DNA from: Prevotellaceae bacterium
GTDB taxonomy: Bacteria; Bacteroidota; Bacteroidia; Bacteroidales; UBA932
Direction: 5' to 3'
Length of the DNA stretch: 42,249 nt
NCBI GenBank assembly: GCA_031258415.1
Contig: JAIRMW010000064.1
Span: forward strand, 1 to 42,249
Both the position numbers and the translations under genes were made by a program. This document shows positions 4,288 to 24,265 of the stretch, in pieces. Within the stretch, counting starts at the first letter, position 1. Every line of letters begins with the position of its first letter. The notes below the pieces were generated by a model. It saw only the letters and a program-made list of their open reading frames with translations, searched no databases and was not told the origin of the DNA.

Positions 4288-4824
4288 ATGTTGAATATAC
4301 CCCAAACGCCAACCCCGACGCCGGCGAACGCGGCAACCCTGCCCGTCGAACGGGTTACCGCCGCCGACACCGCCGCCATGATGAGCTACAGCCCCGGCAG
4401 CGTCGACGAGCTGGCCGACGAACTGCGGCAGCCCAAACAGCCCTTCGAGGTGCCCGACTTCGAGGCCCTCGAAACGACTGTCGAAACGCCCGAACCCGAA
4501 CCCTCGCCCGCCGAGGCGCGCGCGCAAAACAAAATGGTCGCCCAAACCGTCGCCAGCGTTGGCGACGGCGTGCTGGCATTCCTGCTCTCCGTATTCGCTC
4601 ACGACGAACCCCACGAGTTCCGGCTGCCGAAAGAGTCGATGCGCGACATCATGCCGACCCTCGAGCGATGTATGGCCGGAAAAAACATAGACCTCGCGCC
4701 CGGATGGGCGCTCTTCTTTGCCGTCCTGATCGCCTACCTGCCCCTCGTGATGAAAGCCAATGCCAAACGGAACGAATGGAAAGAAAAACAGAAAGCCGCA
4801 GAGCATGGAACAGCAAGCCCTTAA
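4288..4824 (+). CDS. Proline/threonine-rich protein with C-terminal membrane segment
   Basis: 178 residues. Residues 1-80 are low-complexity and acidic (PTPTP, EPEPSP). Residues 91-103 are weakly hydrophobic. Residues 139-155 form a transmembrane helix (ALFFAVLIAYLPLV) followed by a Lys/Glu-rich tail. It overlaps the ATPase gene by 20 bp. It begins the theme of single-pass proteins that continues through the virus module. Unknown family. Confidence 0.6.
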   Translation: MLNIPQTPTPTPANAATLPVERVTAADTAAMMSYSPGSVDELADELRQPKQPFEVPDFEALETTVETPEPEPSPAEARAQNKMVAQTVASVGDGVLAFLLSVFAHDEPHEFRLPKESMRDIMPTLERCMAGKNIDLAPGWALFFAVLIAYLPLVMKANAKRNEWKEKQKAAEHGTASP

Positions 4825-5380
4825 ACCGCCCCCCGAAAGAGCCTGTAAACTGATTGCCGTAATCGGCGTAAACGGTACGGGAAAAACAACGGCAGTCATC
4901 CGACTGTTAAAATCCATGAACGGAAAAGCCCTTATTCTTACCCCACACTGTAACGAATATGAGAAATATCCGCACAATAATCTGGAAAAACCGTCCGACT
5001 TCCGATTCTCGGGAATATGTAAAAACTATTTCCCGTCGCGCGAACTGATGCAATCGGTCGTTAAATACTTCTACGACGGGACACTCGTGCTCGAAGAATC
5101 GCGTATTTACATCGAAAACCAGCCCACGCCGCTCAACTACGCCCTGCTCAACGGAATGCGACAGCGAATGACCGACATCATTTTTGTCGGACACGCTTTT
5201 TCCGACGTCCCGCCCCTATTCCTCAACCGAATGACGCGAATACTGCTGTTCCAGACGCTCGAAAAATTAGAACGCAGAAAAGGAGCCCTGCTCTACTTCG
5301 ACCTCTTTAAGGAAACACAGGAAGAGGTAAACAGAAAAGCCCTCAAAAACCCGCACTTCTGTAAACTGATAAAACTATGA
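4805..5380 (+). CDS. P-loop ATPase, candidate genome-packaging ATPase (HerA/FtsK/A32-like)
   Basis: 191 residues from the ATG at 4805; an upstream in-frame ATG at 4760 lies deep in the previous gene and is less likely. Walker A is GVNGTGKT (residues 21-28). A Walker B-like strand is TLVLEES (93-99). A third strand with a polar sensor is DIIFVGHAF (124-132), followed by LFLNRMTRILLF. This order and small size fit the packaging ATPases of membrane-containing viruses (PRD1, PM2, poxvirus A32 group). Inovirus Zot is an alternative, but there is no C-terminal membrane helix. It lies 1.3 kb before the candidate capsid gene. The ATPase call is solid; the packaging role is inferred. Confidence 0.7.
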   Translation: MEQQALKPPPERACKLIAVIGVNGTGKTTAVIRLLKSMNGKALILTPHCNEYEKYPHNNLEKPSDFRFSGICKNYFPSRELMQSVVKYFYDGTLVLEESRIYIENQPTPLNYALLNGMRQRMTDIIFVGHAFSDVPPLFLNRMTRILLFQTLEKLERRKGALLYFDLFKETQEEVNRKALKNPHFCKLIKL

Positions 5381-5743: not shown

Positions 5744-6157
5744 TCACGCATTCGCAATGAACGTCAGCCCCTGCCGTTTATAGTATTTCATTTTCTGGTC
5801 GCTACTGATGAGCGGCATCCTTTCGGTGAGGGATTGGGCAATGATAAGACGGTCGAACGGATCGCCGTGATCTTTGACCGGCGCAATCTGATAGAAGGTC
5901 GTAAGATGCTCCTTTTTGATATATTTGATCTTAAAATTCAAGGTGTTTTCAATATCTTCAAACACATCTTTCGCGGATTTCCATTTAGGTACAACGATCT
6001 TATTCGTCTGTAGGAGCATGAAAATTTCCTGTATGCTAACGGCGCTTACATAAATAAGATTTTCAGGATTTTCGATAATTTGAAATATGTCTTTTGAGAT
6101 AAGAGATGTCTCTGTACGTAAGCGGATAAGAATAGTAGTATCAATTAAGTATCTCAT
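5744..6157 (-). CDS. VapC-type PIN-domain toxin
   Basis: 137 residues, complete. MRYLIDTTILIRL gives the first catalytic Asp (residue 6), VSIQEI the conserved Glu, and HGDPFDRLIIAQ plus LISSDQK the remaining acidic residues. The PFDRLIIAQ motif is typical of type II toxin-antitoxin VapC proteins. It lies 21 bp after the lysine-rich antitoxin-like gene on the same strand and is convergent with the DUF4248 gene. A second member of this subfamily ends at position 102. Confidence 0.88.
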   Translation of the reverse strand: MRYLIDTTILIRLRTETSLISKDIFQIIENPENLIYVSAVSIQEIFMLLQTNKIVVPKWKSAKDVFEDIENTLNFKIKYIKKEHLTTFYQIAPVKDHGDPFDRLIIAQSLTERMPLISSDQKMKYYKRQGLTFIANA

Positions 6158-6722: not shown

Positions 6723-6866
6723 ATGACAAATTATCTGAACAAAACATCCACCGTCGCATGGCTCGTCATCGCACTGATCGTCATTGTGCTCGTTACGCAC
6801 GTGGCAGACAAAAAGGCGACCGGAACCTCCAATTTTTTTGGTAAACTATTAAAAAAGAAAAAATAA
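6723..6866 (+). CDS. 47-residue single-pass membrane protein
   Basis: The first gene of the structural operon. A transmembrane helix (VAWLVIALIVIVLVTHV, residues 11-27) is followed by a basic tail ending in KLLKKKK. Its TAA overlaps the ATG of the candidate capsid gene by one base, so the two are translationally coupled. Tiny membrane proteins of this type are common in viruses with an internal lipid membrane and in filamentous phages. No family recognised. Confidence 0.65.
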   Translation: MTNYLNKTSTVAWLVIALIVIVLVTHVADKKATGTSNFFGKLLKKKK

Positions 6867-7594
6867 TGAAACAAAATTTTCCTTCACTGGCCGGTAAACA
6901 ACGCTTGTCGGCCCGTATGACCGGCGCCGATTTTACCGACGCCATTGCCCGAGCCCGACGGCAAAACTCCGTCCGGTTCAACGGCGTAACGCCCGAAGAT
7001 GCCGCCGACTTCCTGATCAGCAAGTATACCATCCAGTATACGCTTACCAGCGTCGCCGCCTCCTCCGTCAAACTCGCGTTACTGCCGGGCTATTTTAACT
7101 CGGTTACGGAGATCAACGCCTCCCGCGGACTGGCGCTCGACGCCATTATCAACGAGGGCGACATCAAGGACACCGCCTCCACGCCCGCCAAGATTGCGAC
7201 GGGTAAAGGCGAACCGTATCCGATTAACGAACTGCTGCGCTTTGTGTATCGCAATCCGCAGTGCTTCACGCATTTAAAACTACTGGCCAGCTCTCCCGAC
7301 CAGCTCTACAACAACATTGAAATCGTTCACCTCTCGCCCTATCACGGGCTGGCAAGCGACCGGCTTAACCCGTCGATGTACAAAACCGCCAACCAGACCA
7401 ACGATAAGATGGCCGACATTCCCCTGCCGGATTTTCAGATGGACGACCAGACGCTGCTGTACATCACGCTCAACGCCGGCGCGTCGCTGACGTTCATCTG
7501 GAGCGCCGGCGCCCAGTGGAACGAAGCCAGCGACCTGCACGAACTGGCGAAAGGATACGCAAGCATCCTGGCCAACGCCTCCGCAGGACGCTAA
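6866..7594 (+). CDS. Candidate major capsid protein
   Basis: 242 residues without a membrane helix, the only sizeable soluble protein in this run of membrane proteins. After a helical start it is beta-rich (YTIQYTLTSVAASSVKLALL, LLYITLNAGASLTFIW), which suits a jelly-roll fold. It is coupled to the small membrane protein upstream and is followed by a strong hairpin at 7616-7667. Such a hairpin would let this gene be expressed above its downstream neighbours, as expected for the most abundant virion protein. I cannot show homology by eye. Alternatives are a spike or another capsid-associated protein. Confidence 0.5.
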   Translation: MKQNFPSLAGKQRLSARMTGADFTDAIARARRQNSVRFNGVTPEDAADFLISKYTIQYTLTSVAASSVKLALLPGYFNSVTEINASRGLALDAIINEGDIKDTASTPAKIATGKGEPYPINELLRFVYRNPQCFTHLKLLASSPDQLYNNIEIVHLSPYHGLASDRLNPSMYKTANQTNDKMADIPLPDFQMDDQTLLYITLNAGASLTFIWSAGAQWNEASDLHELAKGYASILANASAGR

Positions 7595-7615
7595 GCGGTA
7601 AACAAACGTAATTAC

Positions 7616-7667
7616 GGGGGCCTCCGTTGGCGAGCTGTATAGTCCTCGCCCGCCAACGGAATCCCCC
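7616..7667 (+). terminator. Strong intercistronic hairpin after the candidate capsid gene
   Basis: Stem CCGTTGGCG (7624-7632) with CGCCAACGG (7651-7659), extended by GGGGG (7616-7620) with CCCCC (7663-7667). The following DNA is TTAATTATTTATT, not a clean T-run. It is therefore more likely an attenuator or RNA-stability element than a full stop. Confidence 0.6.
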
Positions 7668-7697
7668 TTAATTATTTATTACTAAAGAACAAATACA

Positions 7698-8270
7698 ATG
7701 GATAAGCAGCAAGCTACACAATTTGTACAACAGGCCTTTCAGCTGGCCGGCACCGACCGCGTCCGAGCCCTGTTCGGCAAATACAACATGCGCGGCGTTA
7801 CGCCAAGCGTTACCGCATTCGTCGCCGGCGGAAACCTCTATGGACAAGCCTTCCTTACCGATTTCGGAAACATGGTGGCCGACGCCGAGCGCGCGAAAGC
7901 CAAAGCCGACGGCGACACCGGCGACTACGGTATGATTGGCCCGCCGTATGAGCCGGTCGTTCCGGACGACACCGGCGGCGGAACGAATGACGGATGGACT
8001 GTCGTGAAAAAAATTATGGAGTTGGCTGATACAGCAGTTCATACTACTGTATATGCGTGGCAGGCATTCACCGGCGCCCCGACGCCTTCCACCACCTCCA
8101 CTACCGCCACGCAGCCGAACTACTATATCCTGCCCGGCAACAGCGCCGCCACGACCGCCGCCGCCGCCGCCGGCAACAGCAACACGACGCTCATTATCGT
8201 CATTGTGTCCGTCGTATTAGTCGTACTGATTGCCCTGATAGCCGTAACGATGCTCGGCAAAAAGAAATAA
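7698..8270 (+). CDS. Single-pass membrane protein with Thr/Ala-rich stalk
   Basis: 190 residues. A soluble head occupies 1-130, then a Thr/Pro/Ala-rich stalk, then a C-terminal transmembrane helix (about 164-184) and the tail GKKK. The topology puts the head on one side of a membrane with three lysines on the other. It is the second protein after the candidate capsid gene and is separated from it by the hairpin. Unknown family; a virion membrane protein is inferred. Confidence 0.6.
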   Translation: MDKQQATQFVQQAFQLAGTDRVRALFGKYNMRGVTPSVTAFVAGGNLYGQAFLTDFGNMVADAERAKAKADGDTGDYGMIGPPYEPVVPDDTGGGTNDGWTVVKKIMELADTAVHTTVYAWQAFTGAPTPSTTSTTATQPNYYILPGNSAATTAAAAAGNSNTTLIIVIVSVVLVVLIALIAVTMLGKKK

Positions 8271-8274
8271 AACC

Positions 8275-8844
8275 ATGAAAGTGTTGCGCAAACATATACC
8301 CGGAGAACGGTCGCCGGCGGTAGCCGACTTCTACGAGCAGACAATCACGCTCAACGAGCCGGCGTATTCGCAATTCGACGACTTTACGCAACGCTTCATA
8401 CTCCAACACGAACGGGGACATCTGGCGCTCGATACGCTCGACGAAATGGCCGCCGACCGCTACGCCTTCGACGCCCTCGCCGGCAGCGAACCCTACAGCC
8501 TGCGAAAAAGCGTCGAAGCCCTCGAAAACTCGTTGCCCTATACCAACCCGGAGCACTACGCCCGCCTCCGGCAGCAGCTGCGGCGAGCCCTCGAATGGGA
8601 CGCCAACCACGGCAACCCCGACGCCGCCAAAGCGCTGGCCGAACTCGACCGATACGCCTACTACACCGACTACCAGGGCAGCAACTGGGAGTCCTACCAG
8701 AAACAACAAATAGTCAAGACACGGGCTGACTCCGACAAAATACTGGCCGGCTCCTATACCCTCAACACCTCGTCGATCGTCCTGATGGGCGTCTTTTTCG
8801 TCGTCGTCATTCTCGTCGGGTTTTCATTTCGTAAAAAAGGATAG
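8275..8844 (+). CDS. Membrane-anchored HExxH metallopeptidase
   Basis: 189 residues. LQHERGHLALD contains the zinc motif HERGH (residues 45-49), followed by DEMAAD with Glu57 and Asp61, the E-x-x-x-D pattern of M48/M56-like peptidases. A helical middle region follows, then a C-terminal transmembrane helix (166-185) and FRKKG. In a virus it could process virion proteins or cut host envelope protein during entry. The motif is clear; substrate and role are not known. It starts 5 bp after its neighbour, in an operon of similarly anchored proteins. Confidence 0.7.
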   Translation: MKVLRKHIPGERSPAVADFYEQTITLNEPAYSQFDDFTQRFILQHERGHLALDTLDEMAADRYAFDALAGSEPYSLRKSVEALENSLPYTNPEHYARLRQQLRRALEWDANHGNPDAAKALAELDRYAYYTDYQGSNWESYQKQQIVKTRADSDKILAGSYTLNTSSIVLMGVFFVVVILVGFSFRKKG

Positions 8845-8847
8845 ACA

Positions 8848-9159
8848 ATGATCTGGAGTGCAGTTATAAACGGAATAGCCCAATTAGGCTCCTCGATCGT
8901 CGGAATGTTTACGGCAAAAAAAGTCGCCGAAACGCAGAAGCAAATTGCCGAAATCAACGCCGCCGCGCAGCTGCGGATGACCGAAATCAACGCCGACGTC
9001 CGGCAATACGAGACCGACGCCGCACAGATCGACACACAGTACAACGGCCAGTTTGCCCTGGAACTGTCGGAGTATAAAAATGCCGGATTCCAGACCGGCA
9101 TCCTCACGCTCGCCATTGCCGTAACCTGCATCCTATACATTTTAAAAAAACGACCGTAA
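8848..9159 (+). CDS. Small coiled-coil membrane protein
   Basis: 103 residues. An amphipathic start, a coiled coil around residues 25-75 (KVAETQKQIAEINAAAQ), and a C-terminal helix (about 82-99) ending LKKRP. Same topology as its neighbours. No family recognised. Confidence 0.6.
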   Translation: MIWSAVINGIAQLGSSIVGMFTAKKVAETQKQIAEINAAAQLRMTEINADVRQYETDAAQIDTQYNGQFALELSEYKNAGFQTGILTLAIAVTCILYILKKRP

Positions 9160-9162
9160 ACG

Positions 9163-9465
9163 ATGACCGCGCAGACCTTAAATAAAGAAGTAACGGCCAT
9201 AGCCAGAAGCTACTACAGAAAATACAGGCGCTACGGCGACCTGATACCGGAATACGACGCCCGACAACTGTACAACCTGACGACCCTCGACATGGAACTG
9301 AGCGGCGCCGAATACGAACCGGAAGCCCTCGCCACCGTCATCGAAGGAAATATCATCTCGGGCGCCTACAAGATCGATACCGAAGATAACGTATTGCTAT
9401 ACCTCTTCTTTGCCGCTATCGTCATCTGGGTCTATTACTATTATAAAGCCAAATTGAAAAAGTAA
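9163..9465 (+). CDS. Small single-pass membrane protein
   Basis: 100 residues. The N-terminal three quarters are soluble and Tyr-rich (ARSYYRKYRRYGDLIPEYD). Residues 76-92 form a transmembrane helix (LLYLFFAAIVIWVYYYY) with a KAKLKK tail. The start is 3 bp after the preceding stop. Unknown family. Confidence 0.6.
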   Translation: MTAQTLNKEVTAIARSYYRKYRRYGDLIPEYDARQLYNLTTLDMELSGAEYEPEALATVIEGNIISGAYKIDTEDNVLLYLFFAAIVIWVYYYYKAKLKK

Positions 9466-9502
9466 CAGAAATGTTTGCTCAAGCATATAAATTAAATAAA
9501 TA

Positions 9503-10000
9503 ATGGGACCACTTACAAAAGAACTTAAATCCGTCTGGGCCGAATATACGGAATTGCTGGACAAAATTAGCGATATAAAGATTTATCTATACGATATGGA
9601 CGTGCCTGACGCCTCCGCAGAAACCCGAGCGTTTTTAGATCATTTTTACGCGGAATACAACCCAATAAAAGAATGGTACGATGGCGCTTATTCTACTATT
9701 TCTGAATGGCATTTAAATAAATACAATGATGACGTAAAGGAAGAATGGTTAGTGAACTCCACCACCAATCGCGACGCAAAGCATTTTTTAACCCGATTAA
9801 AAAAACTGTACGGCGAAACGAATGCGTTTCTGTCGAACGGTAGTACGGCTTCCTCATCTGCGGTTCCCGGCGTCGCCGGCGTTCCCGCCGCGACGGGCTC
9901 CAATACCTCGCTGTACGTCGGCCTGCTGTTACTGGCCGTCGCCGGCGTCGGCGTCTGGTGGTTTATGCGCCGCAAAAAAGGAAGGAGAATCAAACAATGA
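9503..10000 (+). CDS. Single-pass membrane protein, WWFMRRKK anchor
   Basis: 165 residues. A helical acidic/aromatic head (1-110), a Ser/Ala/Val/Pro linker, then a transmembrane helix (about 137-155) ending WWFMRRKKG. The next gene ends in a near-copy of this anchor (VYFMRRKKRG), including at DNA level (TTTATGCGCCGCAAAAAA), so the anchor has been duplicated between different heads. It overlaps the next gene by 4 bp. Confidence 0.6.
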   Translation: MGPLTKELKSVWAEYTELLDKISDIKIYLYDMDVPDASAETRAFLDHFYAEYNPIKEWYDGAYSTISEWHLNKYNDDVKEEWLVNSTTNRDAKHFLTRLKKLYGETNAFLSNGSTASSSAVPGVAGVPAATGSNTSLYVGLLLLAVAGVGVWWFMRRKKGRRIKQ

Positions 10001-10533
10001 GCGCTTTATCGAACGCACAAGCCGCATTAAACCGCTTTGGCGACGCCTTATCAAGATTCGACGTGCTGACCGGGCTCGACGCCATTCCGGCGACGGCCGA
10101 GGCGATTGAGCAGTACCACACCAAACGGATCGACTACTCCGCCCAAATCACCAATCATAAAAACAGGCTCGATCAACTGACCCGATTACTGACTACGCCC
10201 GTCGGCAATACGTCCCTAACGAAATCCGGCATAAACCTCGAGATTAAACAAATAACCCGCAAGCTCGACGCCCTCGCGTCGGCCGTCTCCGCCGACACGC
10301 GCGACGTGAATACGCTGCATAACGACGCGATAGCCGACCTGCGGGAGCTCGAGCGCACGGATTCGGGCGCCGCGCCCGCCGCCGGCGCGTCGGGATTGCC
10401 CGCCGCCGCAACCGCCGCCGCGACCGCCGGCGCGTCGCGCTGGCTCTGGATGGCAATCGTCGCCGCCGCGATCGTCGCCATCGTATATTTTATGCGCCGC
10501 AAAAAACGAGGAATAACGAATAATAAGCAATAG
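9997..10533 (+). CDS. Single-pass membrane protein with long helical head
   Basis: 178 residues from the ATG at 9997. It is preceded by AAGGAG, a rare good Shine-Dalgarno for this window, and overlaps the previous stop in ATGA. The head is all-helical and coiled-coil-like to about residue 120. An Ala-rich linker follows, then a transmembrane helix (about 147-165) with the shared FMRRKK anchor. Function unknown. Confidence 0.6.
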   Translation: MSALSNAQAALNRFGDALSRFDVLTGLDAIPATAEAIEQYHTKRIDYSAQITNHKNRLDQLTRLLTTPVGNTSLTKSGINLEIKQITRKLDALASAVSADTRDVNTLHNDAIADLRELERTDSGAAPAAGASGLPAAATAAATAGASRWLWMAIVAAAIVAIVYFMRRKKRGITNNKQ

Positions 10534-10535
10534 CG

Positions 10536-11126
10536 ATGAATACTACTACTATATATCCCCGCGGGGTGGTCATCAACGAGCCTGCCAGTATGACGTTAGT
10601 GCGTCCGACGGGCGTCCGCGGACGTCATGTGTTCTGGCTGGCGCAGTCGGGCATTGTCTACCCCCGCCGGTCGGAGGCTATAGCCGACCGCGCCGGCACG
10701 CTTATTGCCTGCACGGCGGCGGCGCGCGAAGCGCTGCAGGCAGGCGAGCGGCTGCTCGTGCGTCCGGCAGCGATGCCTGCCGAAGTACGCATTCCCGGCA
10801 TTTTTGAAGAGCTTTACGGCGAGTCGTTCTACCGCGCCACGTTTATCGAAACGCCCTATATGGTTCCGGCGTCGGTCAAACCCACACAGCATTCGTCGCT
10901 GTGGATTTCAGCGACCGGACGCCTGTACCGGACGTACCGCCACGCCGCCACCGACGACCCGTCGCGGGCCATCGACCTGTCGGCGACGACGGGCGTAGCC
11001 GTCAAACCGTTTCCGTGGCTCTGGGTCGGGCTGGCCGTGGCGGTCGTCGGAATCGTCGTCTGCATCGCAAAAGGGAAAAAACGACCCGGCAAGACGCCGC
11101 CGGTATCGATAACCTATCATCCGTAA
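10536..11126 (+). CDS. Single-pass membrane protein with beta-rich head
   Basis: 196 residues. The head (1-155) is rich in beta-strand-forming residues with Arg-Thr turns. A transmembrane helix follows (WLWVGLAVAVVGIVVCIA, about 159-177), then a basic Pro-rich tail (KGKKRPGKTPP). The longer tail after the helix sets it apart from neighbours. Unknown family. Confidence 0.6.
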   Translation: MNTTTIYPRGVVINEPASMTLVRPTGVRGRHVFWLAQSGIVYPRRSEAIADRAGTLIACTAAAREALQAGERLLVRPAAMPAEVRIPGIFEELYGESFYRATFIETPYMVPASVKPTQHSSLWISATGRLYRTYRHAATDDPSRAIDLSATTGVAVKPFPWLWVGLAVAVVGIVVCIAKGKKRPGKTPPVSITYHP

Positions 11127-11137
11127 AATCGACAATC

Positions 11138-11608
11138 ATGGACGATATACAGAACCTCAATATACGCCGCCTGCAGACGTTCGACCGCGCCGAAGCGCTT
11201 TACCGCGCCGCGCAGCTCGTACTCCCGCCAACCGACTACAAGTCGCTCGACATAGGCGACGTATATAAACGATTGAATTATAAACCAAATAATACAACTA
11301 TGAGTATAAAATACGAAACTGCCGCCGGTACGCCGGCGCAAATCAGAGCGGCCATCGAACACGCCCGCTTCGCGCGCAGGCGCCCCTGCCCGCGCAGCAT
11401 AGCCGCGGACGACTTCGACCCGCAGGGATACTACCGACAGGCCATCGACCCGCAGTGGAGCGATCAGCCGTCCGACGACGGCGCCGACCAGCTCCTCCCG
11501 TCTTTCTACCGGTTCGACGCGCTCGGCAGGCTGACATTCTGGATACGAGTGGCCCTGCTGACGCTATTGATTATAATTATAATTAAAACGCTGACCGTGA
11601 AGAAATAA
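11138..11608 (+). CDS. Single-pass membrane protein
   Basis: 156 residues from the ATG at 11138. An in-frame open stretch begins at 10901, but it lies within the previous gene. The head is basic in the middle (HARFARRRPCPRS) and acidic later. The C-terminal helix (about 132-150) contains LTLLIIIIIKTLTVKK. Unknown family, same topology as the rest of the operon. Confidence 0.55.
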   Translation: MDDIQNLNIRRLQTFDRAEALYRAAQLVLPPTDYKSLDIGDVYKRLNYKPNNTTMSIKYETAAGTPAQIRAAIEHARFARRRPCPRSIAADDFDPQGYYRQAIDPQWSDQPSDDGADQLLPSFYRFDALGRLTFWIRVALLTLLIIIIIKTLTVKK

Positions 11609-11676
11609 AAAGCGCGTCGCGCGGCGAGTATCGAACATCGAAAAGTCTAAAAGTCAAATTTTAAAATAGAGTAAAA

Positions 11677-11862
11677 ATGAAAAAACAACACAAAAAATGG
11701 ATTATCATCGGCGTAATTGTCGTGATAGCAATTGTCGGGTACAACTATTATAAGAAGCACCCCGAGAAATTCAAATTCGCCGGCCCGTCGGGCAGTTCGA
11801 GTACAACGGACGCGACCACACCGGCTGCGACCGAACCGGCCTCCGGCAGCTATTATGGATAA
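11677..11862 (+). CDS. 61-residue N-anchored membrane protein
   Basis: A KKQHKK start, a transmembrane helix (WIIIGVIVVIAIVGYNYY, about 8-24), then a Ser/Thr/Ala-rich exposed tail. The topology is the reverse of the upstream proteins and the same as the peptidoglycan-binding protein that follows. It may be an accessory of that protein or a truncated relative. No family recognised. Confidence 0.55.
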   Translation: MKKQHKKWIIIGVIVVIAIVGYNYYKKHPEKFKFAGPSGSSSTTDATTPAATEPASGSYYG

Positions 11863-11889
11863 TAACAGGCTCGTAACGGATTGCAGGAA

Positions 11890-12312
11890 ATGAACAACGC
11901 GCAAAAAATAACCCTTGGCATCGTCGCGGCGGGCGTGGTTGCCGTGGTCGTCTGGCTGGCGCTGCGGGCTAAGAAAGCCGACGCCGCTACGACGACGACG
12001 ACTACGCCCGGAACGGACGGCGCCACGACAACCGGGCCGGCGCCCGTCGACCCTGCGGTGGCGGCGATCGCTTTTCCCATTAAAGAAGGGTCGCGCGGCG
12101 ACGCCGTCAAAGAGCTGCAGCGGGCCGCCAACCGCTATCTCGCGGCGCACCCCGTCATCACGCAGGCGCACCCCGACATCGTGGCGCTGGCCGTCGACGG
12201 TATCTGGGGCGTGAAAACCGCGAAGGCGCTGTACTATTGCTTCAACGTCGGCGAAATGGGCGTACTCAATATCGCACAATACGACGCCGTAATGGGGCAG
12301 TCGTACAGTTAG
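11890..12312 (+). CDS. Membrane-anchored peptidoglycan-binding protein
   Basis: 140 residues. An ATG at 11890 is preferred over a TTG three codons earlier. The N-terminal transmembrane helix is at residues 6-25, followed by a Thr-rich linker. A PG_binding_1-type domain follows at about 63-120: EGSRGDAVKELQRAANRYL, then DGIWGVKTAKAL. This fold binds peptidoglycan and usually partners a hydrolase; the lytic transglycosylase is two genes downstream. It would hold the virus membrane or entry device against the cell wall. Confidence 0.75.
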   Translation: MNNAQKITLGIVAAGVVAVVVWLALRAKKADAATTTTTTPGTDGATTTGPAPVDPAVAAIAFPIKEGSRGDAVKELQRAANRYLAAHPVITQAHPDIVALAVDGIWGVKTAKALYYCFNVGEMGVLNIAQYDAVMGQSYS

Positions 12313-12365: not shown

Positions 12366-12494
12366 ATGGATATACCTGTAAATGTAAATATGAAGCATGA
12401 AGTCGCCCTTCCGATGAAGGAGCTGTACACGTTAGTGTCGGTCATTTTTGGCGGTTCATTGCTATTGATTATCATTAAGAAAATACTGAAATGA
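12366..12494 (+). CDS. 42-residue membrane protein coupled to the transglycosylase
   Basis: Sequence begins MDIPVNVNMKHEV and ends in a transmembrane helix with KKILK (about 21-38). Its stop overlaps the transglycosylase start (ATGA at 12491), implying coupling. It could hold the transglycosylase at a membrane or act as a small holin-like protein. No family recognised. Confidence 0.55.
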   Translation: MDIPVNVNMKHEVALPMKELYTLVSVIFGGSLLLIIIKKILK

Positions 12495-12997
12495 TGTTAG
12501 TATACGAGAACAATGTACCGTCGGACGTCCGGGCGTCCTTTACGGCCAAAGTACGGACGATAGCCGGGCAGCTTGGCGTCGAACCCGACTGGCTGATGGG
12601 CGTGATGTGGGTCGAAAGTCGCCTGCGCGCCGCCGCACGCAACGCGACGACCGGCGCCACAGGCCTGATCCAGTTTATGCCCGCCACCGCCGCCGCGCTC
12701 GGCACCACCACCGACGCCCTGCGGACGATGGACGCCGTCGCGCAGTTAGACTATGTGCTGAAGTACTTAAAACCCTACACGGGGCGCATGAAATCGTTCT
12801 ACGACACCTATTTTGCTGTGTTTTTTCCGGCCGCCATCGGTAAACCCGACGACTGGACGCTCTCGGCGGCGGGTCTGTCGGCAGCGAAGATCGCCGCGGC
12901 GAACAGCGGCTTCGACGTCAATCGCGACGGCGCGCTGACCGTGGGCGAAATCAAAGAACGGCTGCCGGTCATCGAAACCGCGCAAAAAAAAAAGTAA
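12491..12997 (+). CDS. SLT-type lytic transglycosylase with EF-hand-like loop
   Basis: 168 residues. The lysozyme-like fold is marked by WVESRLRAAA (catalytic Glu42), then GATGLIQFMPATA (about 55-67), and the later YVLKYLKPYTGRM. It cleaves the glycan strands of peptidoglycan. Near the C-terminus DVNRDGALTVGE has the spacing of a calcium-binding EF-hand/dockerin loop. The frame ends in ten A followed at once by TAA. The -1 frame stays open and encodes a transmembrane tail (see the next entry). It is the entry or lysis muramidase of the virus. Confidence 0.85.
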   Translation: MMLVYENNVPSDVRASFTAKVRTIAGQLGVEPDWLMGVMWVESRLRAAARNATTGATGLIQFMPATAAALGTTTDALRTMDAVAQLDYVLKYLKPYTGRMKSFYDTYFAVFFPAAIGKPDDWTLSAAGLSAAKIAAANSGFDVNRDGALTVGEIKERLPVIETAQKKK

Positions 12998-13142: not shown

Positions 13143-13697
13143 ATGAACCCAATAGTAGCTATGAGTGGCGCCGATCTCGCCGGACGGGGCGTCGAGCTCG
13201 CCGGACAGGGCGCCAAGGCCGCCGGCAAGGCGGCCGGCTCGCTGTTCAACGAGCCGATTGTCGGACGTTTTACGCTCAAGAAACTGACCGTATGGATGGT
13301 GGCGGCATTCGTACTGTATCTCGTATGGTATTTTTTCTTCCGAAAATCCGCCGCCGAAAAAGCCGCCGACAAGGCCGCCGAAACCGTCAACGGAATCACC
13401 ATTAACAGCAGCAATATTTCGCTTTCTACCAACGATATAAATCTTATTTCGCAGCAGCTGTACAACGCGATGGAGCCGTGGGGCACCGACGAGGAGGCCA
13501 TCGTCTCCACCCTCGACCGCCTTTCGACGAAAGACGACCTGCTGGCCGTGATGAAGCGTTTCGGAACACCCCAATACGGCAGCTGGATAGAAGGATACCG
13601 TTTTTTAGACCTTACCGGATGGCTCAAAGCCGAACTCGGCGGTTCCGTCCTGACACATGTTCGGAATGTGTTCCTCAATTTCGGAATACCGTTTTAA
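13143..13697 (+). CDS. Annexin-like membrane protein
   Basis: 184 residues. A Gly/Ala-rich start, a transmembrane helix at about 49-66 (LTVWMVAAFVLYLVWYFFF), an Ala/Lys helix, then a domain at about 103-168. That domain reads like an annexin repeat: LYNAMEPWGTDEEAIVSTL, a basic helix, and LTGWLKAELGG. In annexins the G-T-D-E turn binds calcium and phospholipid. The similarity is visible in one repeat only and has not been tested by profile search. A role in membrane bending or fusion would be speculation. Confidence 0.6.
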   Translation: MNPIVAMSGADLAGRGVELAGQGAKAAGKAAGSLFNEPIVGRFTLKKLTVWMVAAFVLYLVWYFFFRKSAAEKAADKAAETVNGITINSSNISLSTNDINLISQQLYNAMEPWGTDEEAIVSTLDRLSTKDDLLAVMKRFGTPQYGSWIEGYRFLDLTGWLKAELGGSVLTHVRNVFLNFGIPF

Positions 13698-13709: not shown

Positions 13710-13979
13710 ATGATTGACGAAAACACACGTGTACGCAATGAGAGCAGCCTGCTGGAATTTACCCGCGAGCCCGACGCCTTACTGATTGATAGCTCGGCGG
13801 TTTATTTGGGCTATAAATGGTCGGGCAACCACGCCTTTGACGACCCGATGTGGTCGATTAAGCGCATCCGGTGGGACGATACGACCGGCGAAGTGTCGGT
13901 CATGTGGGCCAACGGCAACAAACGCCAGTGCATCTTCCTGTTTTCGGAATGTACGACATACCCTTATGCGTTTGCCTGA
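13710..13979 (+). CDS. Small protein preceding the fibre
   Basis: 89 residues, soluble, with aromatic and acidic residues (GYKWSGNHAFDDPMW, then RIRWDD) and a strand-rich end (VSVMWANGNKRQCIFLF). Its TGA overlaps the fibre ATG (TGATG). It may be a fibre base or adaptor. Family not recognised. Confidence 0.6.
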   Translation: MIDENTRVRNESSLLEFTREPDALLIDSSAVYLGYKWSGNHAFDDPMWSIKRIRWDDTTGEVSVMWANGNKRQCIFLFSECTTYPYAFA

Positions 13980-16900
13980 TGGATAAAGAATTTGTAATCG
14001 ACCTGCTCTCCGGCAAATCCATGCTGCTGCTGAAAAATGGCGGCGGCGAGGGCGACGTGAAAGACGTACAGGTAAACGGCTCGTCGGTCGTTACCGATGG
14101 CGTTGCCGAAATTGACTTAGTGCCCTATGTCGAATACAACGGCGCCGTGAAGAACCTCAACATGGACAGCTTTTCTATCGTCAATGTCGAAACACTGGCG
14201 GTGAACGAAATCAAAAAGAACTCGGCCCTGGCCGTCGCCTACAAAGACGCCCGGACGCCAGAGGACGATACGGACGCCGCCAATAAAAAATATGTCGACG
14301 ACAATACGGGCAATAAAGTAGATAAGGTAGAGGGGAAAGGCCTTTCGACCAACGACTATACCGACGCCGACAAAACGCGGGTGGCCGGGGCGGCGCTAAA
14401 ATTCAAAATCGACGCACACAATGTGTTCGACGTCTTAAACGTGGAAGCCTACGCCTATTCCGACGGCACGACAATCGAATTACGGCATCTCGGCCTGATT
14501 TTCGACTTCGACGACTGGTGCGAATACGCCTCGTACGACGAATCGATTAATACGGTATACCGGACGTTGATCCAGTGGGATTTCAACGCCTCCGACGGCC
14601 TTTATTACCTGAATCTCTACAAGGCGTATACGGCCATACCCATAGCGATAGCCAGCTGGGACGGCGCTAATTATACCTGGTTGGAAGCCGAAGGCGTCAT
14701 TGATCTGGGCTATAAACTCGGCTTTAAAATTGGCGGAAAAATGACCGCCAACTGGTACAGCAGCCTGACGGCGGAAGGATCGGACGACCTGTTCATTGAT
14801 CTGGAATACCTGTACGGCATTCTCAAAGCGACGAACAACTCTATAAACGACTCGATCGACGACCTCTATAAAGCGATCGAAACCGCCAACGGCAAGCTCG
14901 CCGGCATCGCCCCCGGCGCCGAAGTCAACGTGCAGGCCGACTGGTCGCAAACAGACGATACGCAAGACGACTATATTAAAAACAAGCCGTCCGATCTGGT
15001 AGCCGACGCCAACTATACGCATACCGACAACAACTATACGGAGACCGAACGCATCAAGCTCGCGGGCATCGCCGACGGCGCCGAAGTCAACGTACAGGCC
15101 GACTGGAGCCAGCAGACCACCACCGCCGACGACTATATCAAGAACAAGCCGACGATCCCGACGGCGACCTCAGACCTGACCAACGACTCCGACTTTGTGG
15201 CCGACGCCGCCTACACGCATACCGACAACAACTATACGTCGGCCGAACGCACCAAGCTCGCCGGCATCGCCGCCGGCGCCGAAGTCAACGTACAGGCCGA
15301 CTGGGGACAGGAGACCACCACCGCCGACGACTATATCAAGAACAAGCCGGCGATCCCGACGGCGACCTCGCAGCTGACCAACGACGCCGGCTTTGTGGCC
15401 GACGCCGCCTATACGCATACCGACAATAACTATACGTCGGCCGAACGCACCAAGCTCGCGGGCATCGCCGCCGGCGCTGAGGTGAACGTACAGGCCGACT
15501 GGGGACTGGAGACCGCCACCGCCGACGACTATATCAAGAACAAGCCGGCGATCCCGACGGCGACCTCAGACCTGACCAACGACTCCGACTTTGTGGCCGA
15601 CGCCAACTATACGCATACCGACAACAACTATACGTCGGCCGAACGCACCAAGCTCGCCGGCATCGCCGCCGGCGCTGAGGTCAACGTACAGGCCGACTGG
15701 AGCCAGCAGACCACCGCGGCCGACGACTATATCAAGAACAAGCCGGCGATCCCGACCGCGACCTCAGACCTGACTAACGACTCCGACTTTGTGGCCGACG
15801 CCGCCTATACGCATACCGACAACAACTATACGACCGCCGAAAAAAACAAGCTCGCCGGATTGGAACCGTCGACCTATAAAGGCACATTCGGAACGTCGGC
15901 CGAACTGCTCGCCGCGTATCCGAACCCCGTTATCGGATGGTCGGCCGACGTGAATATCGGAGACAGCCAAAACCCCGAATGGCACAAATATATCTGCGAA
16001 ACCAACGGCGTCTGGACGGATGGCGGCACGATGGGCGGCGAAACGCCGGAGTCGATTAAAGTGAAATACGAAAGTAACGACGATACCAATGCGTATACCG
16101 ATAACGAAAAAAACAAGCTCGCCGGCATCGCCGCCGGCGCCGAAGTCAACGTACAGTCCGACTGGAGCCAGGAGACCACCACCGCCGACGACTATATCAA
16201 GAACAAGCCGACGATCCCGACGGCAACCTCGCAGCTGACCAACGACGCCGGCTTCGTGGCCGACGACAAATATACGCATACCGACAACAACTATACGTCG
16301 GCCGAACGCACCAAGCTCGCGGGCATCGCCGCCGGCGCCGAAGTCAACGTACAGGCCGACTGGAGCCAGCAGACCGCCGCGGCCGACGACTACATCAAGA
16401 ACAAGCCGACGATCCCGACCGCGACCTCGCAGCTGACCAACGACGCCGGCTTTGTGGCCGACGCCTCCTATACGCATACCGACAATAACTATACGTCGGC
16501 CGAAAAAACCAAGCTCGCCGGCATCGCCGCCGGCGCCGAAGTGAACGTACAGGCCGACTGGAGCCAGCAGACCACCGCGGCCGACGACTATATCAAGAAC
16601 AAGCCGACGATCCCGACGGCAACCTCGCAGCTGACCAACGACTCACACTTCGTGTCCGACACCTCCTACAATCATACCGACAACAACTATACGACCGCCG
16701 AGAAGAACAAGCTCGCGGGCATCGCCGCCGGCGCTGAGGTGAACGTACAGTCCGACTGGAACCAGCAGACTACCACCGCCGACGACTACATCAAGAACAA
16801 GCCGGGAGCCGTCAGTAAATCGTCCGACGGACTGATGACGGCGGCACTGTATACAAAATTGGGAGGTATACAGGAGTATGCGGAAGTAAATCCCGTACTG

Positions 16901-17110
16901 ATTACCTCGATTGTATTCAACAGCGCCACGGTTTCGCTGGCGACTCAGGTTACCATTTATACGAGCAAAGCGGCAAACGTATCCGTAAAAACCGCCGACG
17001 GAAAAGTAATTAGCGGCACAATGTCCGGGAAAAACCCCTATACATTTACGCCGGCCGATGTATCGATTTTTGCCGGCGATTTTATCATCGAAATAGATCA
17101 AAAAGTATAA
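13979..17110 (+). CDS. Long repetitive fibre / receptor-binding protein
   Basis: 1043 residues from the ATG at 13979. The N-terminal part (to about residue 300) is unique and contains a TPEDDTDAANKKYVDDN box, typical of tail-fibre trimerisation regions. Then come two blocks of 66-residue repeats built around KLAGIAAGAEVNVQADW, DDYIKNKPTIPTATS and THTDNNYT. They are split by a different domain (YKGTFGTSAELLAAYP, then EWHKYICETNGVWTDGG). The C-terminal domain is a short beta-rich module. These repeats are known from phage side fibres. It is probably the host-recognition spike of the virion. Confidence 0.8.
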   Translation: MDKEFVIDLLSGKSMLLLKNGGGEGDVKDVQVNGSSVVTDGVAEIDLVPYVEYNGAVKNLNMDSFSIVNVETLAVNEIKKNSALAVAYKDARTPEDDTDAANKKYVDDNTGNKVDKVEGKGLSTNDYTDADKTRVAGAALKFKIDAHNVFDVLNVEAYAYSDGTTIELRHLGLIFDFDDWCEYASYDESINTVYRTLIQWDFNASDGLYYLNLYKAYTAIPIAIASWDGANYTWLEAEGVIDLGYKLGFKIGGKMTANWYSSLTAEGSDDLFIDLEYLYGILKATNNSINDSIDDLYKAIETANGKLAGIAPGAEVNVQADWSQTDDTQDDYIKNKPSDLVADANYTHTDNNYTETERIKLAGIADGAEVNVQADWSQQTTTADDYIKNKPTIPTATSDLTNDSDFVADAAYTHTDNNYTSAERTKLAGIAAGAEVNVQADWGQETTTADDYIKNKPAIPTATSQLTNDAGFVADAAYTHTDNNYTSAERTKLAGIAAGAEVNVQADWGLETATADDYIKNKPAIPTATSDLTNDSDFVADANYTHTDNNYTSAERTKLAGIAAGAEVNVQADWSQQTTAADDYIKNKPAIPTATSDLTNDSDFVADAAYTHTDNNYTTAEKNKLAGLEPSTYKGTFGTSAELLAAYPNPVIGWSADVNIGDSQNPEWHKYICETNGVWTDGGTMGGETPESIKVKYESNDDTNAYTDNEKNKLAGIAAGAEVNVQSDWSQETTTADDYIKNKPTIPTATSQLTNDAGFVADDKYTHTDNNYTSAERTKLAGIAAGAEVNVQADWSQQTAAADDYIKNKPTIPTATSQLTNDAGFVADASYTHTDNNYTSAEKTKLAGIAAGAEVNVQADWSQQTTAADDYIKNKPTIPTATSQLTNDSHFVSDTSYNHTDNNYTTAEKNKLAGIAAGAEVNVQSDWNQQTTTADDYIKNKPGAVSKSSDGLMTAALYTKLGGIQEYAEVNPVLITSIVFNSATVSLATQVTIYTSKAANVSVKTADGKVISGTMSGKNPYTFTPADVSIFAGDFIIEIDQKV
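14890..16800 (+). repeat. 198-bp in-frame repeats within the fibre gene
   Basis: Segments beginning at the CTCGCCGGCATCGCC-type core recur with a 198-bp period at about 15060, 15258, 15456 and 15654, and again at about 16119, 16317, 16515 and 16713. An earlier diverged one lies near 14898. Identity between neighbours is very high, so unequal recombination could change fibre length. There are no spacers, so this is not a CRISPR array. Confidence 0.8.
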
Positions 17111-19281: not shown

Positions 19282-19584
19282 ATGGCAAAACCAGTATTAA
19301 AAAACAAAAAGGAAATCGTCATTCCCGACGGGACGGAGAGTATTGTGGTCAGTTTCCGCACGATCAAACGGAAGGGCGGGATTAAGAATGCGCGCAAGGT
19401 GGTCGTTCCGCGTGCGGCTGCGCAGGCTGTTATCCGGCTGAAAAAGAACCGTCCGGCGACGCAGACTAAGAGCGCGACGAAACGCGCCGTTCTGTCGAAG
19501 GCCGAATTTTTAGCGCGCATGGCGGAAGGCAAACGCAAGGCCGCTGAAAAAAAAGGAGCGCCGGCGCCGGTAGCCCATGAATAA
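19282..19584 (+). CDS. Small very basic protein
   Basis: 100 residues, about one quarter Lys plus Arg, with a short beta region (EIVIPDGTESIVVSFRTIK) and a Lys/Ala-rich tail. It could condense or bind nucleic acid. It overlaps the start of the following nuclease candidate by 8 bp, so the two are coupled. A nucleoid-like virion protein or a partner of the nuclease are both possible. Confidence 0.55.
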   Translation: MAKPVLKNKKEIVIPDGTESIVVSFRTIKRKGGIKNARKVVVPRAAAQAVIRLKKNRPATQTKSATKRAVLSKAEFLARMAEGKRKAAEKKGAPAPVAHE

Positions 19585-19945
19585 GTTATACGGTTATGAA
19601 AGAGTAGGCCGGCTCAAAATGTCGGTCGCGCGCGCGATCAGGCGCGAGACGGCGGATATTTATGTTACCCGAAACTATCTGCGGCATATCGAAAACGAGC
19701 ATCCCAAAGAGTTGAAAATGTTAGGTCTCGAAGCGATTACGCTGGTGCGAATGGTGGTCAATCAGTATAACCGTATCTATAAGGGTTTAGGCGACTCGTT
19801 GCTGTTGGTGGTTTACAACGGCCGGCCGAAAGCGACGGCGATTGAGTTGAACTGGGCTTTGAAAGAAGGATTTTACGAGGTGAAAACGGCTACGATTATG
19901 CGGAAGGATTTTTTAAAAGAAAAAAAATTACTGTGGTCAAAGTAG
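19577..19945 (+). CDS. PBECR-like nuclease candidate, copy 2
   Basis: 122 residues, close paralogue of 20697-21065 (nearly identical) and more distant from 2547-2930. Conserved blocks: YVTRNYLRHIENEHPKEL, LLLVVYNGRPKATAIELNW, YEVKTATIM, and the C-terminal LLWSK. The codons for Leu-Leu-Trp (TTA CTG TGG) form the left arm of structured repeat unit 3, so gene end and repeat overlap by about 20 bp. Three repeat units follow. RNase toxicity is inferred from fold similarity only. Confidence 0.6.
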   Translation: MNKLYGYERVGRLKMSVARAIRRETADIYVTRNYLRHIENEHPKELKMLGLEAITLVRMVVNQYNRIYKGLGDSLLLVVYNGRPKATAIELNWALKEGFYEVKTATIMRKDFLKEKKLLWSK

Positions 19946-20696: not shown

Positions 20697-21065
20697 ATGA
20701 ATAAGTTATACGGTTATGAAAGAGTAGGCCGGCTCAAAATGTCGGTCGCGCGCGCGATCAGGCGCGAGGCGGCGGATATTTATGTTACCCGGAACTATTT
20801 GCGGCATATCGAAAACGAGCATCCCAAAGAGTTGAATCTATTAGGTCTCGAAGCGATTATGCTGGTGCGAATGGTGGTCAACCAGTATAACCGTATCTAT
20901 AAGGGTTCCGGCGACTCGTTGCTGCTGGTGGTCTACAACGGTCGGCCGAAAGCGACGGCGATTGAGTTGAACTGGGCTTTGAAAGAAGGATTTTACGAGG
21001 TAAAAACGGCTACGATTATGAAAAAGGAGTTTTTAAAAAAAGAAAAATTACTGTGGCTAAAGTAG
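20697..21065 (+). CDS. PBECR-like nuclease candidate, copy 3
   Basis: 122 residues, differing from copy 2 by only a few residues, ending LLWLK. The tandem duplication therefore includes the gene and at least one repeat unit. The stop codon again lies just inside the structured repeat (unit 6). The histidines in NYLRHIENEHPKEL and the paired strands are conserved in all three copies, so the protein appears to be maintained. Confidence 0.6.
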   Translation: MNKLYGYERVGRLKMSVARAIRREAADIYVTRNYLRHIENEHPKELNLLGLEAIMLVRMVVNQYNRIYKGSGDSLLLVVYNGRPKATAIELNWALKEGFYEVKTATIMKKEFLKKEKLLWLK

Positions 21066-22045: not shown

Positions 22046-23209
22046 TTAACCCCATACGCCATTAAAAAATTGCATGGCATCTTCAACCGACTCGTAGACC
22101 ACATGCGCATAGATGCGTGTTTGTTCAATCTTGCTGTGGCCAAGCAGTTCTTGGAGCGTAGCGATTTTTTCGCCATTGCTGATTAAAAAATTGGTAGCGA
22201 AGGTATGTCTGGCGCAGTGGAATGAGATGCGCTTGTCGATACCGACCTTTTTCATAATATCTTTTAAGAAAAGATTGGTTTTTTGGTCGCTGATGACATG
22301 AAACACCGGCGCGCCCGTGCGTGCGTTTGCATCGCGAATTAATTCTCGAGCACCTTGCGTAATAGGGATTTTAACGGTTTTTCCTGTTTCATTTTTCGTT
22401 TTTATCATTTGCACGACTATTGTATTGCCTACGATGTTTGCCCGTGAAAAAACTTTTATGTCGCTGTACCGAAGTCCTGTAAGGCAACTGAAAAGGAAGT
22501 ATTGCAGGACATTTTGCAAGTGTCCCGGGAGGGTGTTTGCTTTGTACAGCGCGATACATTTTTGCAACTCGACCGGACTAAGGTATTCCCGGACGGCAAT
22601 GTTCGGCTGTAGGCGAACGGGTTCAAATGGATTGCCGGATACAAGGCCCTCCTTTCGTGCGATATAGAAGTATTTTTTCAGCGGCTTCAGTGTTCCTAAT
22701 GTCGAAGAGGCTTTGTTTTTGCATGTAACCCGGCACCATCGTATCAGTTCCATGACCGTTGTTTCTGTGATGTCTCTTAATTGTAACTCCGGCGAAAAAG
22801 TCTTTATTTTTCGCAGCGCCGATAAATGCCGTTTATAGGTTCCGATAGCGTAATCCGCCTTATTTTCATTCAATTTTTTTAGCGCATAATCGAAAAATAG
22901 AAAATTCATCGTGTAATTTTCATACTCTCTCCGTAGTAGTTCCGGCGTGAGCGTCGAGAACCGCAGACGGTAACGTACAAATATTTCGTTGAGTCGTGCC
23001 TTGCAATTATTGATGATAAGGTTCTTATCTTTACTTTCCTTGGATGTCCCCTTGATGAAACCACGCGACAGGTCGATGTTCTCAAAACGTGTCGATACGC
23101 CCGTCTTAAAGCGTACTGGACGCCCGTCTACAACTGTGGACACATACACGGAATAAGTATTATCTGCTTTTTTCTGTCGCGGATTGATGTATAAAGTAAT
23201 TCTATTCAT
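22046..23209 (-). CDS. Tyrosine recombinase / integrase
   Basis: 387 residues. An N-terminal arm-binding region (ITLYINPRQKKADNTYSVYV), a SAM-like core-binding domain (about 95-200), and a catalytic domain. Catalytic residues: Arg in SCLTGLRYSD, His-x-x-Arg in HCARHTFATN, His in LLGHSKIEQT, nucleophile Tyr in RIYAHV. This is the phage_integrase/SAM-like type widespread in Bacteroidota mobile elements. It is transcribed toward the element and lies between it and tRNA-Gln, the classic position for tRNA-targeted integration. Confidence 0.93.
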   Translation of the reverse strand: MNRITLYINPRQKKADNTYSVYVSTVVDGRPVRFKTGVSTRFENIDLSRGFIKGTSKESKDKNLIINNCKARLNEIFVRYRLRFSTLTPELLRREYENYTMNFLFFDYALKKLNENKADYAIGTYKRHLSALRKIKTFSPELQLRDITETTVMELIRWCRVTCKNKASSTLGTLKPLKKYFYIARKEGLVSGNPFEPVRLQPNIAVREYLSPVELQKCIALYKANTLPGHLQNVLQYFLFSCLTGLRYSDIKVFSRANIVGNTIVVQMIKTKNETGKTVKIPITQGARELIRDANARTGAPVFHVISDQKTNLFLKDIMKKVGIDKRISFHCARHTFATNFLISNGEKIATLQELLGHSKIEQTRIYAHVVYESVEDAMQFFNGVWG

Positions 23210-23334: not shown

Positions 23335-23394
23335 ATTTAACCCATTTAAAACACTGTATGCTATGCGATTACTCAAATAATCGCGGGCTTTTTG

Positions 23395-23465
23395 TTGACC
23401 TAACAGGATTCGAACCTATACAAACAGAACCAAAATCTGTTGTGCTACCATTACACCATAGGTCA
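23395..23465 (-). tRNA. tRNA-Gln (anticodon TTG)
   Basis: 71 nt. The acceptor stem TGACCTA pairs with TAGGTCA (discriminator A). The anticodon arm ACAGA/TCTGT encloses TTTTGGT, giving anticodon TTG. The T-loop is TTCGAAT. CCA is not encoded. A -7 box TACCTTTGC lies upstream at 23484-23492. The 3' end faces the integrase, so this gene is the probable integration target. Confidence 0.92.
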
Positions 23466-23492: not shown

Positions 23493-23680
23493 CAATTTTT
23501 TTGAAGATCGTCAAAAAGTTTGCACAAAATAAACCGTCCTCTCCCGATGGCAGGCGCCAGACCCTCCTCGGCGATAGACAATGACGAGGCCGCCGCCGCC
23601 ACAGGCCAATTGTTCATTATTTATTGTTCATTGGCTTCGGCCTCGCCTGTAGACGGTTTGACCTCCTTAACGGGCATTGC

Positions 23681-24121
23681 GTTGTCTCCCACGGAAGCTG
23701 CGTTGTCCTCCGCACAAGTCGCGTTGTCCTCCGCTCAAGCCGCGTTGTCCTCCGCGCAAGCCGCGTTGTCCTCCGCGCAAGTCGCGTTGTCCTCCGCGCA
23801 AGTCGCGTTGTCCTCCGCGCAAGTCGCGTTGTCTTCCGCGCAAGCCTCGTTGTCTTCCGCGCGAGTCGATTTATCCTCCGCACAGGCCAATTTATCCCCC
23901 GCGCAAGTCGCGTTGTCCTCCGCGCAAGCTGCGTTGTCCTCCGCGCAAGCTGCGTTGTCTTCCGCGCAAGTCGCGTTGTCTTCCGCGCAAGCCTCGTTGT
24001 CTTCCGCACAAGCCGCGTTGTCCTCCGCACAAGTCGCGTTGTCCTCCGCACAAGCTGCGTTGTCCTCCGCGCAAGCCGCGTTGTCCTCCACGAAAGTCTC
24101 GTTGTCCTCCACGAAAGTTCT
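23681..24121. repeat. 21-bp tandem repeat array (about 21 units)
   Basis: Units of the form GTTGTCCTCCGCGCAAG plus four bases repeat with an exact 21-bp period and no indels. Because the period is seven codons and the unit lacks stops, several frames on both strands are open (for example ALSSAQV, RVVLRAS, CAEDNAT). None has a convincing start and a sensible non-repeat part. It runs directly into the gene fragment at 24116. A second 21-bp array lies at 35468. Confidence 0.85.
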
Positions 24122-24265
24122 GCGGTGTATGTATCGGGCAACGACGTTTATGTGGCCGAATACGCAAAGAACCACAGCAACATCGACGTCGCCACCGTAT
24201 GGAAAAACGGGATAGCGGAAACGCTCGACGACGATGGCTGGCTGTTTTCCGTTTTTGTGAAGTAA
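24116..24265 (+). pseudogene. 3' fragment of a WKNG-repeat surface protein
   Basis: 49 codons reading SAVYVSGNDVYVAEYAK, then VATVWKNGIAETL and WLFSVFVK, then stop. The VYVSGNDVYVAG / VATVWKNG pattern is a repeated beta-propeller-like motif of Bacteroidota exported proteins. Here only the last repeat survives, joined on its 5' side to the 21-bp array. Frame and stop are intact, but no start is visible. Confidence 0.55.

Follow-up and report, generated by a model that had tools for sequence, protein, structure and literature searches.

A small membrane protein encoded in a provirus of a Bacteroidales bacterium carries in its C-terminal part what is, on the grounds of profile comparison and predicted fold, a true homologue of one annexin repeat, with a likeness well above chance. 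The gene lies in a window (the whole analysed stretch) of 42,249 nt. The gene looks like a core gene of a lineage of Bacteroidota proviruses, and we suggest that its product works at a membrane of the virus.

Architecture and predicted fold of the protein

The features of the protein, all of them on the plus strand, are the following.

13143..13697, + strand: annexin-like single-span membrane protein, intact open reading frame from ATG to stop, 184 aa
13275..13340, + strand: transmembrane helix, residues 45-66 (hydropathy; AlphaFold helix)
13428..13679, + strand: single annexin repeat, residues 96-179 (AlphaFold, pLDDT above 90; profile matches)
13470..13493, + strand: A-B loop (MEPWGTDE, residues 110-117), which corresponds to the M-K-G-x-G-T-D-E loop of type II calcium sites
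13632..13634, + strand: codon for Glu164 (motif KAELGG), the counterpart of Glu72, which is the acidic calcium ligand in annexin A5

The chain begins with an Ala/Gly-rich stretch modelled at low confidence and continues through the transmembrane helix and another, short helix into a compact domain at the C-terminus. The first-pass annotation had placed a transmembrane helix in front of the repeat, and both the Kyte-Doolittle maximum (residues 48-66) and the AlphaFold helix (45-66) confirm it. In the AlphaFold model the domain adopts the five-helix annexin fold, with helices A (96-110), B (117-125), C (130-140), D (157-164) and E (167-179) predicted at pLDDT above 90. The stretch AMEPWGTDEEAIVSTLDRL corresponds to residues 109-127. 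The motif LTGWLKAELGG, at about residues 157-167, makes up the D helix and the D-E loop, the site of the acidic calcium ligand in annexins. Helices C and D are separated by an insert, a hairpin of about 10 residues. The chain contains one repeat and not the four by which classical annexins are defined.

Homology to annexins

Taken alone, the single sequence is insufficient. The Pfam annexin model (PF00191) gives it 16.9 bits (E 0.007) against a curated cut-off of 25 bits, and we therefore speak only of a homologue of an annexin repeat. Its relatives do exceed this cut-off, with scores of 30.7, 31.5, 25.6, 37.2, 26.2 and 25.1 bits, and of 27 for G014. When the Pfam model was run blindly over 300 whole genomes of the host's family, the top three matches (G021, G014 and G091) were members of the annexin-like family, and the 184-aa protein came fifth.

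Searches in the opposite direction lead to annexins as well. The 24 best phmmer matches of the protein among 177,635 PDB sequences are all annexins, the best E-value being 4.6e-6 summed over repeats. A weaker tail at E about 0.5-0.9 includes the PRD1 vertex protein P16; homology to P16 was dropped, the match being confined to the transmembrane stretch (DUF1970 E 0.044, PDB E 0.48). A profile of the protein and four homologues, all four found without any annexin information, matches Annexin VI in the PDB at 2.3e-26, with 26.2 bits for the best single repeat. With a profile of 29 relatives the E-values fall to 6.4e-50 and the alignment runs across the whole repeat, a figure that is somewhat flattered, some of the relatives having been retrieved by a search pattern that includes the G-T-D-E loop.

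Structure comparison points the same way: the 50 best Foldseek matches in the PDB are essentially all annexin structures or annexin fusions, most with a probability of about 1.0. Their E-values start at about 0.05, none reaching 0.001, partly because only about 84 of the 184 residues align; the TM-scores of 0.28-0.34 are normalised to the full 184 aa. A chance or composition-driven resemblance of some unrelated helical bundle would fit the subthreshold Pfam score and these modest Foldseek E-values, but it is already disfavoured and in our view highly improbable, given the relatives above the cut-off, the full-repeat coverage of the family profile, the five confidently predicted helices, and the 82.4 bits that the protein receives from a family profile built without its closest relatives and clade, where the best of 2000 shuffles reaches 8.3. 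Sequence comparison and predicted fold thus bear out the annexin-like repeat first noticed in this gene.

Candidate calcium site

The type II calcium site of annexin A5 takes its ligands from the backbone, through oxygens of M28, G30 and G32, and from one side chain, that of E72. The same positions are occupied here by M110, P112, G114 and E164, and T115 is present too; a proline (P112) stands where annexins have Gly30. The distance from T to E is 49 residues, as against 39 in annexin A5, because of the hairpin insert. The E164 position is Glu or Asp in 27 of 29 relatives and in 44 of the 52 members of a larger set, in which 40 have Gly at the position of G114 and 42 have Thr at that of T115. 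Three members of the core lineage (L126, L131 and L133) have lost the G-x-G-T-D loop motif, so calcium binding cannot be essential throughout the lineage. Judged by these residues, a role of calcium is likely for many family members, not for all.

The provirus and its lineage

The stretch from position 1 of the window to about 23.2 kb looks like an integrated provirus, whose left end apparently lies at or past the contig end. Its main features are these.

4760..5380, + strand: P-loop packaging-type ATPase (weak matches: AAA_16 E 2e-4, DUF87/HerA E 0.013), kept upstream of the capsid candidate
6723..12312, + strand: series of short genes, almost all predicted to encode a single membrane helix (hydropathy; about a dozen single-span proteins)
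6866..7594, + strand: capsid-protein candidate, 242 aa, beta-rich, with a jelly-roll-like model of low confidence; conserved, upstream of the zincin-like gene
8275..8844, + strand: zincin-like protein carrying a HERGH motif and, at its C-terminus, a membrane anchor; conserved in the lineage
11890..12312, + strand: single-span membrane protein that includes a peptidoglycan-binding-like domain (matches to PHROG endolysin families at E 0.0008), conserved in relatives
12491..12997, + strand: lytic transglycosylase (SLT), sharing 43% identity over 137 aa with the lytic enzyme of the Flavobacterium phage FLiP
18086..18532, + strand: holin (Phage_holin_4_1), profile match
22046..23209, - strand: tyrosine integrase, adjoining tRNA-Gln (23394-23465)

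The integrase, the packaging-type ATPase and the cluster of single-span membrane proteins support the initial description of the gene product as a phage membrane protein. A search for a repeated attachment site for tRNA-Gln found none. Among the provirus genes scanned there is no portal, tail tube or tail gene, and the combination of a packaging ATPase with a membrane-protein cluster and no tail genes is the one expected of a membrane-containing double-jelly-roll virus. By sequence, the capsid candidate has no match among known capsids; its model (pLDDT 62) has no significant fold match, and neither sequence nor fold ties it to any known membrane-containing phage. The membrane in the virion is therefore deduced from gene content, and we consider the provirus apparently tailless and probably membrane-containing.

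Several further elements were noted in passing. The provirus also encodes a BspA-type LRR protein and a repetitive fibre-like gene; the fibre-like ORF (13976-17110) contains 198-nt tandem repeats (AGIAAGAEVNVQADW units) in eight copies of 61-100% identity. Three small ORFs (2547-2930, 19577-19945 and 20697-21065) are paralogous and accompanied by repeated non-coding stretches. Two small proteins (552-968 and 5744-6157) appear PIN-like by eye and might be toxins of toxin-antitoxin pairs. The zincin-like protein, found beside the capsid candidate at most sites examined, is a possible virion maturation protease. In the host flank, just past tRNA-Gln, lies an array of 21-bp tandem repeats (23617-24215).

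Close relatives keep one gene order around the annexin-like gene: ATPase, capsid candidate, zincin and annexin recur in this succession, with peptidoglycan-binding-like and transglycosylase genes nearby. These relatives had been found through the annexin gene itself. To test the association independently, we searched 393 Bacteroidales genomes with nothing but the capsid-candidate profile and scanned the flanks of 12 sites. An annexin-like membrane protein lies downstream of the capsid candidate at nine of the 12 (L125, L126, L128, L129, L130, L131, L133, L134 and L136). At L132 the sequence stops 0.8 kb past the capsid gene, and at L127 and L135 the several kb downstream of it hold no detectable annexin-like match. 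Since the capsid profile was built from sites first found via the annexin gene, this sampling is independent of the annexin sequence and not wholly of the lineage. A scan of viral contigs with the capsid alignment gave no relative. On this evidence the annexin-like gene looks like a core gene of the provirus lineage.

Distribution in other viruses and elements

Annexin-like domains had been called rare in viruses in the first-pass annotation, which is not quite so. A tblastn search of 50,697 phage records gave no convincing match, single-sequence searches of IMG/VR and phage records gave no confirmed relative, and among BFVD viral models only one matched at E below 0.001. The family is nevertheless present in 23 IMG/VR loci and in many Bacteroidota proviruses, and looks overlooked and not rare.

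Its settings are diverse. One flavobacterial genome (L073) harbors a FLiP-like provirus that carries an annexin-like membrane protein together with a G2P-type replication protein (E 2e-7), a FLiP capsid-like protein (E 1.3e-4), an integrase and a phage lysozyme. The IMG/VR contig L040 has three annexin-like membrane protein genes within 1.8 kb (9300-11099), with a peptidoglycan-binding-like protein between the second and the third. Other flavobacterial elements with transglutaminase-like proteins, one of them with an ArdC-like protein, carry single or paired annexin-like genes. In tailed-phage-like IMG/VR contigs (L027-L050) the proteins are larger and join the annexin repeat to a C-terminal peptidoglycan-binding-like part; PG_binding_1 reaches Pfam significance only in L032 among those scanned, and in L035 a T4-type major head protein is encoded near the annexin-like gene. 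These versions indicate that the annexin domain is not restricted to membrane-containing viruses. A protein of L060 (1201-1917, - strand) has a membrane helix and then two annexin-like repeats in one chain, and scores highest of the set against the Pfam annexin model (37.2 bits).

The genome of Marinilabilia salmonicolor JCM 21150 encodes a homologue 38% identical over the annexin domain, in a neighbourhood of polyvalent-protein and fibre-like genes. The element bearing it is likely viral.

Discussion

A function in structure or assembly at the membrane of the virion is suggested by the membrane helix, by the clustering with membrane, transglycosylase and peptidoglycan-binding genes, and by the presence of the gene almost throughout the lineage. 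We hypothesize that the protein is a single-span virion or assembly membrane protein whose annexin domain contacts phospholipid, a proposal that we judge about evenly poised between right and wrong. The transmembrane helix would place the protein in the bacterial inner membrane and subsequently in the membrane of the virion. The annexin domain would then touch phospholipid, possibly via calcium held in the A-B and D-E loops. Such contact could gather or curve the virion membrane; alternatively, it could join virion and host membranes at DNA delivery. Two proteins whose genes lie just upstream, the transglycosylase and the peptidoglycan-binding protein, may act alongside it. That a lipid-binding domain would suit a membrane-containing virion, as first supposed, is plausible.

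The same neighbours can be read differently. If the protein stayed in the inner membrane of the host, absent from the virion, it might disturb or hold that membrane at lysis, in concert with transglycosylase and holin. The adjacent transglycosylase and peptidoglycan-binding-like genes fit such a function, as do the fusions with a peptidoglycan-binding-like part in tailed-phage-like contigs. However, the holin lies 4.4 kb off, beyond the fibre genes, and the transglycosylase is similar to the lytic enzyme of FLiP, a protein with a structural annotation, which indicates a virion module. We regard this lysis function as unlikely, while still the strongest competitor.

Slightly less probable again is that the repeat has lost lipid and calcium binding and is now only a small helical adaptor between proteins, linking the virion membrane to a capsid vertex or to the lytic enzyme. 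This would account for the core members without the G-x-G-T-D motif. It would also agree with two proteins of membrane-containing phages, the structural-annotated ASQ41217 of FLiP and gp12 of phiCjT23, which have a similar layout (a membrane helix, then a helical domain) and, when scored with the larger family profile, come first or nearly so among the proteins of their genomes, at E-values of about 0.01-0.1 that are not significant. We do not claim their homology to the annexin-like family: a reversed decoy scores close by, and the narrower domain profile missed ASQ41217. L084, picked up as a relative of gp12, was a false hit, a thioredoxin-like host protein. Against a pure adaptor, the G-T-D-E loop and the distant acidic ligand are kept in most relatives, a conservation not easily accounted for unless the domain has a role involving metal or lipid.

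The preferred reading, a virion or assembly protein in contact with phospholipid, can be set beside known systems. With the eukaryotic annexins (A5, A6 and A8) the 184-aa protein shares the five-helix repeat, the A-B loop and the acidic D-E residue; those have four or eight repeats and no membrane anchor, whereas in the protein described here a single repeat, with a hairpin inserted between helices C and D, is joined to a transmembrane helix. Finnlakeviridae (FLiP) and phage phiCjT23 are membrane-containing Flavobacterium phages with small genomes rich in membrane proteins and Bacteroidota hosts, as in our case, and the FLiP virion lytic enzyme is of the same family as the provirus transglycosylase, although the latter also resembles many tailed-phage enzymes. 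The provirus capsid candidate, in contrast, looks unrelated to the capsids of these two phages, and FLiP has single-stranded DNA and no packaging ATPase (PMC5894146), while the provirus has one.

Both single-domain annexins of bacteria, some of them with a transmembrane region, and annexin domains of phage-tail-like toxin systems are already known. Kodavali et al. (2014) described the former, mostly from Bacteroidota, with a G-x-G-T-D loop that often includes Trp and with neighbouring pairs in flavobacteria; they treat them as bacterial genes and do not mention phages (PMC3894181). One repeat is common to those proteins and ours, which differ in being encoded in proviruses, as a core gene of one lineage. 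Annexin domains of bacterial toxins delivered by phage-tail-like systems were proposed to help breach membranes (PMC3482391). There too a single annexin domain occurs in a prokaryotic delivery setting, but as an accessory domain of a large protein, and not in a small stand-alone viral membrane protein. In the part of the literature covered by our search, we found no earlier report of annexins in viruses of prokaryotes. M. salmonicolor JCM 21150 is among the annexin-bearing strains named by Kodavali et al. (PMC3894181), and at least one published "bacterial annexin" is of the type described here and sits in a virus-like neighbourhood.

Taken together, we tentatively propose, as a possibility short of even, that annexin repeats are a working part of Bacteroidota viruses. 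Membrane-anchored single annexins would be core proteins of the virion, serving to gather or fuse membranes while particles assemble or deliver their DNA, and some at least of the published bacterial annexins would be genes of integrated viruses. Annexins are membrane-organising eukaryotic proteins, best known from animals and plants, and the few relatives known from bacteria have been regarded as possible ancestors. If our assumptions are true, they bear on the points at which the annexin fold passed from one domain of life to another, and viruses may be suggested as its carriers. A core provirus gene gives bacterial annexins a testable function in virus assembly or entry, and provides a marker for the poorly sampled, apparently tailless proviruses of Bacteroidota.
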